Below, piece by piece: positions 21,866 to 34,064 of a stretch of 64,000 nt of DNA. Every line of letters starts with the position of its first letter. Position 1 is the first letter of the stretch. The position numbers were made by a program, and so were the translations under genes. The notes beneath the pieces were generated by a model, which did not search any database, was not told the DNA's origin, and saw only the letters and a program-made list of their open reading frames with translations. Origin of the DNA: Fidelibacterota bacterium (GTDB lineage Bacteria > Fidelibacterota > Marinisomatia > Marinisomatales > TCS55); the NCBI GenBank assembly GCA_004124385.1, contig SCKN01000002.1, forward strand, positions 62,001 to 126,000. The letters run 5' to 3'.

Positions 21866-23035
21866 TTATACTTTTGCAAATGCTTGTTTCAAATCAGCTA
21901 TTATATCATCAACATTTTCGATTCCCACGGAAATGCGAACTAATCCATCAGTCAATCCTCTAGCGATACGTTCATCTTTTGGAAGGTCCCCATGTGTCAT
22001 GGTTATCGGGTGGGTAATCATAGTTTCCACCGCACCAAGACTTTCAGCTAATTGAGCAAGACGGACTGAATGCATGAGAGTTTTTCCCGCCTGGATTCCA
22101 CCGCTTAATTCAAACGAAATCATCCCACCGAAACCGGACATTTGCTCTTTGGCCACTGAATGATTTGGGTGGGTAGACAACCCCGGATATGCAACTGTCG
22201 CCACTTTTGAATTTTCTTCCAAATATTCGGCTATCGCCATGGCATTTTCATTATGTTTTTTCATACGCAAAGCAAGAGTTTTTACACCCAGTAAGGTGAG
22301 CCAGCAATTAAAGGGACTGGGAACTGCCCCGATAGTTTTTTGGATAAATTGCAAATATTCAGCTAAATCTTCTCTGTTTGTAATGACTATTCCTCCGATG
22401 AGTTGATTATGACCGCTGATGTATTTAGAAATGCTGTGCATAACCAAATCTGCACCAAATTCCAATGGGCGCAATAGAGCTGGTGTCGCAAATGTTGAAT
22501 CAACGCTAAAGAGAATATTATGCTTCTTGGCAATGGCTCCAACCGCTTCCAAATCAGTTATTTTGAGCAAGGGGTTCGAAGGAGTTTCAATCCAGATTAA
22601 TTTGGTATCAGGACGAATAGCATTTTCTACATTTTCAAAATTTGACGAATCTACGTAGGTAAATTCCAATCCGTAATTTACCAGTACCTGATTAAAGTGT
22701 CGGAATACACCACCATAGACGTTATCGGAACACACTACATGGTCACCTGATTTTAAAAATTTTAGGCAACTGTCAACAGCAGACATTCCACTGGCGAATG
22801 CAATACCGTATTTCCCTCCATCCAGAGCAGCAAGATGTTCTTCCATCATCTGTCGTGTGGGGTTTGCTGAACGGGTATAGTCAAACCCTTTATCTTTCCC
22901 CACTTCTTCCAAAACGTAGGTTGCCGTTTGGTGAAGCGGTGGAAGAATGGCACCAGTTTCTTTATCCGGTTTTATTCCGGCGTGGACTGTCTTTGTATCG
23001 AATTTAATGATTATTTCCTTTTTTGACATGACCAA
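21866..23035 (-). CDS. Cys/Met-metabolism PLP enzyme (cystathionine gamma-synthase/lyase type)
   Basis: A 389-residue fold-type I PLP enzyme. FDTKTVHAGIKPDKETGAI starts the domain. YTRSANPTRQMMEEHLAALDGG and FASGMSAVDSCL follow, and the cofactor lysine is K204 in SISKYISGH. ETPSNPLLKITDL binds substrate carboxylate in the family. Members interconvert cysteine, cystathionine, homocysteine and methionine (gamma-synthase, gamma- or beta-lyase, O-acetylhomoserine sulfhydrylase, methionine gamma-lyase); sequence alone does not separate these safely. The start may be the third codon (second Met) instead. Confidence 0.9.
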   Translation of the reverse strand: MVMSKKEIIIKFDTKTVHAGIKPDKETGAILPPLHQTATYVLEEVGKDKGFDYTRSANPTRQMMEEHLAALDGGKYGIAFASGMSAVDSCLKFLKSGDHVVCSDNVYGGVFRHFNQVLVNYGLEFTYVDSSNFENVENAIRPDTKLIWIETPSNPLLKITDLEAVGAIAKKHNILFSVDSTFATPALLRPLEFGADLVMHSISKYISGHNQLIGGIVITNREDLAEYLQFIQKTIGAVPSPFNCWLTLLGVKTLALRMKKHNENAMAIAEYLEENSKVATVAYPGLSTHPNHSVAKEQMSGFGGMISFELSGGIQAGKTLMHSVRLAQLAESLGAVETMITHPITMTHGDLPKDERIARGLTDGLVRISVGIENVDDIIADLKQAFAKV

Positions 23036-31758: not shown

Positions 31759-32739
31759 ATGTCAACACAAAATGATGCACAACTCGTAAAACAATTAGGC
31801 CAATTTCGTCAGGATTTTTTAGATGAGATTGGTAAAGTCATTATTGGCCAACAGAATATCCTTGACCATTTTCTCATAGCTCTTATATGCAAAGGACATA
31901 CTCTTTTAGTGGGTGTACCTGGATTAGCAAAAACACTTTTGATAAAATCCATGGCTGAATTACTTGATCTAAAGTTCAGCAGAATTCAATTTACGCCAGA
32001 CTTAATGCCCAGTGATATTACTGGTACAGAAGTTATCGAAGAAGATCATGCAACAGGGAAAAGGGGGTTCAGATTTTTTCGAGGACCCGTATTTGGGAAT
32101 ATAATTCTTGCTGATGAGATTAATCGAACACCGCCAAAAACACAATCTGCCCTCTTGCAGGCCATGCAGGAACACAATGTAACAGCAGGGGGGGAAACAT
32201 ATACACTGGATGAACCATTTTTTGTATTGGCAACACAAAACCCAATCGAACAAGAAGGGACCTATCCCCTACCCGAAGCACAATTGGATCGGTTTATGTT
32301 TAATATAAAAATTGATTACCCCAGCCGAGATGAAGAAGTTGAAATTGTACAAACAACTACAAGCGGTAGTGAAGCTGCGTTAAAATCGATCATTTCCAAA
32401 GACCAACTTTTAACATTTCAAGAATTGGTCCGCCGTGTACCCGTCGCGGAAAATGTAGTTGAATATGCGGTTGACTTGGTTCGAAAAACTCGTTCAAAGG
32501 CAAAGGATTCTCCTGACTTTATTCAAAATTGGATTGATTGGGGCGCAGGTCCAAGAGCATCTCAATACCTGATACTTGGTGCCAAAGGAAGGGCAATTTT
32601 GGATGGCCGACCTACACCGGATATTTCAGATGTAAATGCACTCGCTCTTCCTGTGTTACGTCATCGATTAATAACTAATTTTAACGCAGAAGCTGAAGGC
32701 GTGAGCGTGGATGACATTATTTTAAAACTTCTAGGCTAG
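31759..32739 (+). CDS. MoxR-type AAA+ ATPase
   Basis: A 326-residue MoxR-family ATPase. Walker A is GVPGLAKTLL (residues 52-61), the family phrase FSRIQFTPDLMPSDITGTEV follows, and Walker B with NRTPPKTQSALLQAM is next. The sensor 1 phrase VLATQNPIEQEGTYPLPEAQ and a C-terminal lid helix complete it. MoxR ATPases act as chaperones with vWA-domain proteins. Its natural partner, a DUF58 protein, is encoded 431 bases downstream, separated by the four-helix-bundle gene. A Shine-Dalgarno (aggga) precedes the ATG. Confidence 0.92.
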   Translation: MSTQNDAQLVKQLGQFRQDFLDEIGKVIIGQQNILDHFLIALICKGHTLLVGVPGLAKTLLIKSMAELLDLKFSRIQFTPDLMPSDITGTEVIEEDHATGKRGFRFFRGPVFGNIILADEINRTPPKTQSALLQAMQEHNVTAGGETYTLDEPFFVLATQNPIEQEGTYPLPEAQLDRFMFNIKIDYPSRDEEVEIVQTTTSGSEAALKSIISKDQLLTFQELVRRVPVAENVVEYAVDLVRKTRSKAKDSPDFIQNWIDWGAGPRASQYLILGAKGRAILDGRPTPDISDVNALALPVLRHRLITNFNAEAEGVSVDDIILKLLG

Positions 32740-32752
32740 ATGTTGGATGATA

Positions 32753-33159
32753 AATGTTAGACGTTAAATTTGAAAGGTGAATAATTATGGCTTCATTTAA
32801 AGAATTAGAGGTTTTCAAATTATCTGTCAAATATGTGAAATCTATTTATCAAATAACGCAATCATATCCAAAAGAAGGAAAATTTGGTTTGGTTAGCCAG
32901 ATGCGAGATGCTGCAATTGGAATCCCATCATGTATTGCCGAAAGTACAGGAAGAAGAACTGCCAATGACAGAAAACATTTTATAGATATCGCTTTAGCTT
33001 CATTGTATGAAACTCATTCTCAATTGATTGCTTCAGAAGCTCTAGAATATATTGTGATTGAACGCTTGAATAATGCTGAACCATTCATCAAAAAATTAAA
33101 AGCTAAATTAATTGCGTACCAAAATTTAATAAAAGACAGGCCGTCTAACGTCTAGCATT
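32753..33159. repeat. Short inverted repeats flanking the four-helix-bundle gene
   Basis: The sequence aatgttagacgtta (32753-32766) before the gene and taacgtctagcatt (33146-33159) at its end are complementary in 13 of 14 positions. Each flank also contains related repeating units (gatgttggatgataaatgtt on the left, gtctaacgtctag and attaaacgtct on the right). The right repeat overlaps the stop codon. The whole looks like an inserted cassette between moxR and its DUF58 partner. The span listed includes both arms and the gene between them. Confidence 0.6.
32787..33155 (+). CDS. Four-helix-bundle protein (23S rRNA-intervening-sequence type, S23-like)
   Basis: A 122-residue helical protein. It begins MASFKELEVFKLSVKYVKSI and includes GLVSQMRDAAIGIPSCIAES, the diagnostic phrase of the S23 four-helix-bundle family (normally QLRRAAvSiPsNIAEG). 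It ends with a helix and a basic tail. Such proteins are also encoded by insertions inside 23S rRNA genes; their function is unknown, but they often sit in mobile contexts. A ribosome-binding site (aaaggtg) precedes the ATG. The gene is wedged between moxR and DUF58, with inverted repeats on each side. Confidence 0.88.
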   Translation: MASFKELEVFKLSVKYVKSIYQITQSYPKEGKFGLVSQMRDAAIGIPSCIAESTGRRTANDRKHFIDIALASLYETHSQLIASEALEYIVIERLNNAEPFIKKLKAKLIAYQNLIKDRPSNV

Positions 33160-33170
33160 AAACGTCTTTC

Positions 33171-34064
33171 ATGATCGATAAAAAAAAATATCTGCAGCCG
33201 GAAATTGTAGCCAAACTAGACAATATGGCTCTTCGCGCTCGATTGGTCGTAGAAGGATATATTATTGGCCAACATAAAAGCCCATATCATGGTTTCAGCG
33301 TAGAGTTTGCCGAACACCGCGCTTATGGGCCTGGGGATGAAATACGTCACATAGACTGGAAATTATACGGTAAAACAGACCGTTATTATGTTAAACAATA
33401 CGAAGAAGAAACAAACTTAAAAGCATATATTTTGCTCGATACCAGCCGCTCAATGAAATATACCAGTGGACCGGTGACAAAATTGGATTATGCATCATTT
33501 TTATCAGCAGCACTTACATACCTTATGCTGAATCAGCGAGATGGAACAGGTCTCATATTATTTGATGAAAAGATACGAACATTCATTCCTCCACGGTCTA
33601 CTCCAAGCCACTTGAATACCATCCTTAAAACACTCGAAAAACCCAAACTGGGATCTGATACTAAAATTGGTCTTGTTCTCCATGAAATGGCAGAACGCAT
33701 CAAAAAACGTGGATTAGTTATACTTGTTTCTGATTTAATGGATAATCAGGAAGCTGTATTAAGCGGACTAAAGCATTTCAGACATAATAAACAGGAAGTC
33801 ATCCTCTTTCATATTTTGGATCGTAAAGAATTAGATTTTGAATTCAATACACGCACACGATTTAAAGATATGGAAAGCGGATCATTTCTCACCACAGAAC
33901 CCTGGCAAATAAAACACAGTTATACTAAACGTATGCAACGCTTACAAGATGAGTATAAAAAACAATGCCGGGAACAATTAATCGACTATGTTCCACTCTT
34001 TACCGATCAGAGTTTGGAAATTGCATTACACAGTTATCTAAATAAAAGACAAAAGCTGGGATAA
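33171..34064 (+). CDS. DUF58 (vWA-like) protein, MoxR partner
   Basis: A 297-residue soluble DUF58 protein. AEHRAYGPGDEIRHIDWKLYGKTDRYYVKQYEEETN holds the DUF58 signature (FxExRxYxxGDxxRxIDWxxxAR type), seen here as RAYGPGDEIRHIDWKLYGKT. Next is a vWA-like MIDAS segment, LLDTSRSMKY. Together with MoxR such proteins form metal-dependent chaperone-like systems for activation of partner proteins. No membrane segment is present and no Bat-type vWA membrane protein follows, so the module is the short form. A terminator follows. Confidence 0.88.
   Translation: MIDKKKYLQPEIVAKLDNMALRARLVVEGYIIGQHKSPYHGFSVEFAEHRAYGPGDEIRHIDWKLYGKTDRYYVKQYEEETNLKAYILLDTSRSMKYTSGPVTKLDYASFLSAALTYLMLNQRDGTGLILFDEKIRTFIPPRSTPSHLNTILKTLEKPKLGSDTKIGLVLHEMAERIKKRGLVILVSDLMDNQEAVLSGLKHFRHNKQEVILFHILDRKELDFEFNTRTRFKDMESGSFLTTEPWQIKHSYTKRMQRLQDEYKKQCREQLIDYVPLFTDQSLEIALHSYLNKRQKLG

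Follow-up and report, generated by a model that had tools for sequence, protein, structure and literature searches.

S23 Cassettes with Inverted Heptamer Arms Appear to Jump into Bacterial Operons: A Probable Resident Copy between moxR and DUF58 Genes

Introduction

Why should a gene for a four-helix-bundle protein of the S23 family stand between a moxR and a DUF58 gene, framed by inverted repeats? The question is raised by a single locus in the window (the whole stretch of DNA analysed here, 64,000 nucleotides from a Fidelibacterota bacterium), which the initial annotation had read as a mobile or recombination-linked cassette. S23 and other four-helix-bundle genes are found in many phyla, where they are annotated by name only. 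Within 23S rRNA genes, S23-bearing insertions have been called selfish or mobile, and the question of their mechanism has been open for more than 25 years, according to the accessible text of PMC4990558. It appears that S23 cassettes form a class that jumps into bacterial operons, and the window feature is probably a resident copy of such very small mobile DNA elements, each comprising one four-helix-bundle gene between inverted arms of tandem units of approx. 7 nt.

The Locus and Its Protein

Coordinates and profile matches (PF05635, PF07726, and PF01882) confirm that an S23-like gene splits moxR from DUF58, with all three genes on the + strand (Table 1). It is the sole open reading frame of at least 80 aa between the arms, and the insert has no transposase of its own. 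The protein scores 92 bits against PF05635 (cut-off 33.8) and 83 bits against TIGR02436 (cut-off 24), and its predicted structure (pLDDT 92.7) has four helices. The best fold match of this model is 2GSC (Xcc0516), with a TM score of 0.81-0.92, an rmsd of 0.8-1.1 (about 1 Å), and a sequence E-value of 2.6e-14; Xcc0516 is described as a homopentamer in the part of PMC4990558 available to us. The model also superposes, more loosely, on Avd (8UB7 and 4DWL, i.e., Avd inside the ribonucleoprotein of a diversity-generating retroelement (DGR)), for which the equivalog score of the window protein is 24.8 bits against a cut-off of 80.

Table 1. Features of the moxR-S23-DUF58 locus (positions in the window).
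Feature	Position	Strand	Basis
moxR (AAA_3 ATPase), upstream host gene	31759..32739	+	PF07726 E 9.5e-63; sequence
Left arm: degenerate ~7-nt tandem (TGTTGGA TGATAAA TGTTAGA CGTTAAA)	32733..32781	+	lag-7 score, inverted repeat, shuffles
Likely ribosome-binding site AAAGGTG, 7 nt 5' of the S23 start codon	32773..32779	+	read from sequence
S23 / 23S_rRNA_IVP four-helix-bundle protein, 122 aa	32787..33155	+	PF05635 E 3.3e-26, TIGR02436 E 1.6e-23; model; fold match
Right arm, reverse complement of the left-arm core; overlaps the S23 stop codon	33146..33166	-	inverted repeat
DUF58 / vWA gene, downstream host gene	33171..34064	+	PF01882 E 1.3e-43

The moxR TAG stop lies inside the first heptamers of the left arm, and at the other end the final codons of S23 extend into the right arm. 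The 14-base inverted repeat with 13 matches that had been noted earlier (32753-32766, AATGTTAGACGTTA, against the reverse complement of 33146-33159, AATGCTAGACGTTA) is present and extends to 21 nt at 81%, with a left-arm core at 32746-32766; only one of 2000 dinucleotide shuffles reached the complementarity of the two intergenic stretches. The claim that related short units accompany the repeat holds for the left side, where 32733-32781 scores 27 matches out of 42 at lag 7, the top value in the window (the next is 23; shuffle p = 0.005, the floor of the test), whereas the right flank taken alone has no significant period (p = 0.60). Likewise, tandem 7-nt units under a criterion like that for cyanobacterial STRR repeats are found in the left arm only. 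On their own, the window's arms are modest, as 5.1% of mismatched pairs score equally high. Folded as RNA, the entire insert gains no stability over its shuffles (z -0.33), and a search of Rfam over 32600-33400 gave no match.

Heptamer Arms of Other S23 Genes

The arms were examined in two samples. Among 61 related genomes searched, 26 carry S23 (up to 26 matches in one), and 71 loci were taken by score rank without consulting their flanks, 69 of which had enough flank. The complementarity of an element's own arms was 16.3 in these 69 loci vs. 9.3 for re-paired arms (the best of 10,000 re-pairings reached 10.4), and matches at lags 7 and 14 were prominent in the arms. The second sample comprised 80 loci on named genome contigs (many of them MAG contigs, with titles naming more than ten phyla), found from the protein only; here, 87 of 90 S23 genes had flanks, and the corresponding values were 19.6 and 9.5. 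By comparison, 118 other genes of the same loci showed neither arm matching (9.4 vs. 8.9) nor an excess of the period.

Taken together, 156 S23 elements with flanks were available from many phyla, in a sample biased to top-scoring family members and drawn, for chromosomes, mostly from draft genomes, many of them assembled from metagenomes. A significant heptamer period was detected in at least one flank of 110 of the 156 elements vs. 38 of 191 other genes, and in both flanks of 57 vs. 7, respectively; 46 of the 156 elements showed no significant period in either flank. The control genes exceed the nominal level of the period test, for which array remnants are one possible cause. On finished cyanobacterial plasmids, all 12 S23 loci read by eye (37 plasmid records matched) have such arms. 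Within an element, the left arm matches the right, whereas the unit differs from element to element: 139 different consensus units occur among 167 significant arms, and these units share a loose A-G-T-R-A-x-x design. Thus, what S23 elements have in common is a 7-nt design and not an arm sequence.

The same holds within the window's own genome. It contains a second S23 gene, located between two genes which we take to be guaA and glmS from recognition of their proteins, and its arms consist of other heptamers (TTAATGG type). The proposal to look elsewhere for the same flanking repeats was borne out for the design, which recurs, and not for the sequence, since the 2.1-Mb genome contains exactly two occurrences of GTTAGACGTTA (its reversed control occurs once), and a fixed repeat family can be dismissed.

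Several further patterns were set aside. Stop codons in all three frames occur in 33 of 75 left arms vs. 8.9 expected by shuffling; this excess is not used because the shuffle destroys the period as well. Arms at one site score 15.7 within an element vs. 11.2 across genomes, but the idea that arms change together at each site is not relied on, as no excess is seen at sites S3, S10, S13, S15, S18, and S19, and the data include independent insertions. Finally, the 33-bp hits of an array in genome G038 turned out, in the loci read, to be mostly a nested palindromic repeat rather than heptamers.

Some arrays were seen apart from an S23 gene. In the window genome, a heptamer-like array (GTTAGATGGAAAAGGTTAGACGTTAGAC) with C-rich units and no S23 gene (L004 1440-1620, i.e., G000:C11 at about 22,830-23,010) precedes a SufS-like gene and is possibly a remnant arm pair. 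In another genome (L193/L202, G051:C136 at about 13,750), inverted heptamer arms lie approx. 80 nt apart with no S23 open reading frame inside, resembling a miniature derivative.

Moved Copies, Target Sites, and Junctions

S23 cassettes are found as single units at unrelated sites, with homology that ends in the arms. In genome G037, two S23 copies are 94% identical over 410 bp in unrelated surroundings, and their homology both starts and stops in the heptamer arms. The congeneric genomes G051 and G038 have in common a 584-bp cassette (96% identical) at different genomic places, again with homology ending in the arms; at the site that corresponds to that of G038, G051 has the same outer heptamers enclosing another, degraded S23 gene with its own inner heptamers. 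Similarly, the cassette of an Aulosira plasmid matches that of Trichormus plasmid C over 416 bp, with no match beyond.

Finished cyanobacterial plasmids that are 96-98% identical include both filled and empty versions of a site. In plasmid C of Trichormus variabilis ATCC 29413 and in a Scytonema plasmid, the cassette adjoins a TrbI/VirB10 gene, and the filled site reads GTTAAAAAGTAAT, cassette, GTAATTAACAAAT, i.e., a 5-bp target duplication, vs. the uninterrupted GTTAAAAAGTAATTAACAAAT of the empty site in plasmids of Aulosira, Nostoc linckia, Nostoc carneum, and Tolypothrix (about 97% identity). A cut-down copy of the cassette occupies this site in Nostoc C052. Six other filled/empty comparisons were made: in a Stanieria pair (96-98%), the difference resembles a deletion between GCCT repeats within the arms, a Nostoc pair shows a 3-nt overlap that is the start codon, and in four the junction cannot be aligned. 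Direct repeats other than heptamers were also sought in the outer flanks of 164 elements, which gave two candidate duplications. One, of 30 bp (L149), places the first ten downstream-gene codons at either side of the element, and the other, of 21 bp (L041), may instead be due to a related gene stub; the 600 mismatched pairs all stayed below a score of 18, which is lower than that of either candidate. The junction evidence is thus thin, amounting to one clean short duplication and two candidates; at the window copy, no target duplication can be read.

The usual position is a stop/start junction within an operon, and both host genes stay readable. In 52 of 65 cases, the left arm starts between -25 and +15 nt relative to the upstream stop codon, and 133 of the 148 elements with both neighbours are on the strand of both; among 118 control genes, 94 have the strand in common with the upstream gene and 89 with the downstream gene. 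Antisense orientation is seen in three plasmid copies, and these rule out strictly sense, RNA-level insertion. Sites may also be filled more than once: in four lineages of different phyla, the gmd-fcl type of site has S23 proteins that do not form one clade, and other operon sites have likewise been filled repeatedly by S23 proteins that do not form one clade.

It was also observed that two S23 genes can lie within a few kilobases on one contig (L105, L108, L116, L118, L121, L127, L132, L133, L169, and L171), two of which (L132 and L171) flank both sides of one fadA-like gene.

Age of the Window Copy

The window copy itself bears no sign of recent movement, judging from the clade tree and dN/dS. 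S23 copies at moxR-DUF58 form one clade (100/100) of seven rows (including an f12 copy with moxR off the contig) across families f1, f3, f4, f11, and f12, in a tree with few columns and a bootstrap that is not fully settled; copies at guaA-glmS likewise form one clade with lower support (89/94). The dN/dS of the window S23 gene is 0.04-0.05 against its two nearest relatives, and values of 0.04-0.14 were obtained for S23 in most pairs. One old clade in several families of the order, together with strong purifying selection, indicates inheritance with repeated loss and not a fresh insertion.

The moxR and DUF58 genes are, as had been supposed, normally adjacent, and the empty site sought in relatives is common: among 30 such loci of the family, 26 lack S23 (gap of at most 165 nt), three carry it (including the window), and one runs off its contig and cannot be read. 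S23 is missing at this site from each of the four congeners that could be read. Two of them nevertheless keep heptamers by eye (GGTTAG/ATGTTAGAC in G002 and four units in G003), and several genomes of genus g6 retain right-arm units or short arms, also by eye, with no S23. Hence, S23 can go missing while the heptamers remain. The reading of a mobile cassette is accordingly sustained for the class, by unrelated sites, moved copies, and empty sites, but not for recent movement of the window copy, which is an old resident of a mobile class: ancient, inherited, with a protein under selection and partly decayed arms.

Possible Mechanism and Alternative Explanations

On our reading, S23 cassettes are DNA elements whose paired arms would be the recognised ends, and the cutter may be either S23 itself or a borrowed enzyme. 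The arms might fold into a stem, in DNA or in the transcript, that would be bound by a ring of S23; such a ring on hairpin arms is suggested by the fold and by analogy with Avd. Integration could proceed by a staggered cut that leaves target duplications of varying length, and the cutting is tentatively assigned to an enzyme acting in trans because S23 has no known nuclease fold; no enzyme for cassette movement was found. Slippage and hairpin-templated repair would then keep the arms periodic and matched. A bolder version, which we regard as doubtful, is that S23 cassettes represent a new class of autonomous mobile element, in which the four-helix-bundle ring would be the integration core, reading the arms by their 7-nt design rather than by sequence and producing variable-length target duplications; orphan heptamer arrays of cyanobacteria, Xanthomonas, Beggiatoaceae, and Geobacter would be its footprints, and the S23-bearing 23S rRNA insertions its rRNA branch.

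Among the alternatives to a mobile cassette, a host regulatory module deserves the most attention, although we consider it unlikely. An RNA-binding S23 protein would recognise the heptamer stem formed by the transcript of its own operon and set RNase III processing or the expression of the neighbouring gene, and its spread would be incidental horizontal transfer. The strong purifying selection, the common strand of 133/148 elements and both their neighbours, and the persistence of one clade at moxR-DUF58, and likewise at guaA-glmS, fit such a role, as does the cutting of the rRNA relative by RNase III described in the accessible portion of PMC4990558. However, S23 has been lost repeatedly at its site with no repair in the neighbourhood, plasmid copies lie antisense, the host operons are unrelated, and there are moved copies and empty sites. 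That S23 is an ordinary gene of its operon, surrounded by repeats that arose by chance, is hardly credible; the modest arms in the window would allow it, but it is already contradicted by the arm re-pairing in both samples and by the neighbour-gene controls, with which the single shuffle in 2000 at the window, the moved copies, and the empty sites agree.

Other proposals concern the vehicle. S23 cassettes could be non-autonomous and travel with HUH (Y1) transposases of the RAYT/IS200 type, enzymes that move DNA with hairpin ends. Y1_Tnp is indeed present in 22 of 26 genomes with S23 vs. 3 of 35 without, and its rank correlation with S23 (0.84; partial 0.59 given genome size and other families) is better than that of other transposases. 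Nonetheless, other mobile families rise too (rve in 12/26 vs. 2/35 and DDE_Tnp_1 in 10/26 vs. 1/35), four S23-bearing genomes lack a Y1 match, and none of 20 Y1 genes read by eye in the relatives has heptamer arms, other short palindromes flanking them instead. To our knowledge, a 5-bp duplication is also not expected from this type of transposase. The HUH transposase was thus rejected as the carrier, being correlated but having different ends in a setting where other transposases correlate as well, and we hold the passenger model to be quite improbable. Still less probable is a retroelement route, in which an Avd-like S23 protein would escort a reverse transcriptase supplied in trans: the fold match to Avd in the DGR ribonucleoprotein (8UB7, 4DWL) and variable-length target duplications would suit it, but RVT_1 occurs in 7 of 26 S23-bearing genomes (1 of 35 others) and has no match in the window genome, in G037 with its two moved copies, or in G038 with its 26 S23 matches. 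A phage vehicle was discarded after no match was obtained in 50,697 phage records. As a separate observation, the short palindromes flanking the Y1 genes in relatives of the window genome (L204-L223) are of several different sequences and resemble RAYT/REP.

Relation to Known Systems

The mobile cassette reading can be set against known systems. Like the intervening sequences (IVS) of 23S rRNA, e.g., that of Coxiella burnetii, S23 cassettes place an S23 open reading frame between inverted arms within approx. 0.4 kb, and the accessible text of PMC4990558 describes three heptamers before the Coxiella S23 gene, in a number that varies among strains. However, S23 cassettes sit between protein genes of operons and not in helix 45 of 23S rRNA, are usually armed on both sides, exist in many copies per genome, and target gene junctions. 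The window copy has stem-capable terminal inverted repeats (21 nt, 81%) but lies between moxR and DUF58 and not inside a 23S rRNA gene. Avd has the same fold and a weak sequence match, yet no reverse transcriptase, template, or variable repeat stands beside S23. MITEs and small insertion sequences are also small, with inverted ends and many sites (and, in MITEs, no enzyme of their own), whereas S23 cassettes carry a conserved protein gene and end in variable tandem heptamers rather than in a fixed terminal repeat. Nor are these ends common to the Y1 genes of RAYT/REP systems (20 of 20 in the relatives have no heptamer arms, by eye).

Heptamer repeats are known from cyanobacteria (STRR and TAACTGA arrays; PMC4679880), Xanthomonas (GGGAATC; PMC4692102), and Geobacter (heptanucleotide elements; PMC2700814). 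As far as the accessible text of these papers goes, they too are intergenic tandem 7-nt units with some convergent pairs (70 in Xcc), but each genome has one fixed unit, unlike S23 arms, which vary by element; no mention of S23 or a helix bundle was found in the same text. Indeed, in the accessible parts of open PMC papers (including PMC4853749, PMC10910872, and PMC10053308), heptamer repeats and S23 genes are treated separately, except for the Coxiella 23S rRNA report (PMC4990558); subscription papers and preprints were mostly outside reach, and priority is not settled.

The link to heptamer arms gives the S23 family a concrete hypothesis, i.e., that of a mobile cassette, and orphan heptamer repeats gain a candidate source. 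Moreover, the named finished plasmids with filled and empty sites provide material for testing the movement of S23 elements, including the long-standing question of the 23S rRNA insertions as put in the available text of PMC4990558.

Two additional plasmid sets were noted. Plasmids 1 and 2 of Calothrix brevissima NIES-22 (L224 and L225) have one and the same S23 cassette, which follows an integrase gene, and related plasmids of Tolypothrix, Aulosira, and Nostoc carneum are without that cassette. In Nostoc sp. ATCC 53789, pNsp_a and pNsp_c (L243 and L244) bear paralogous operons that contain the same small gene, with S23 to one side of it in one operon and to the other side in the other.
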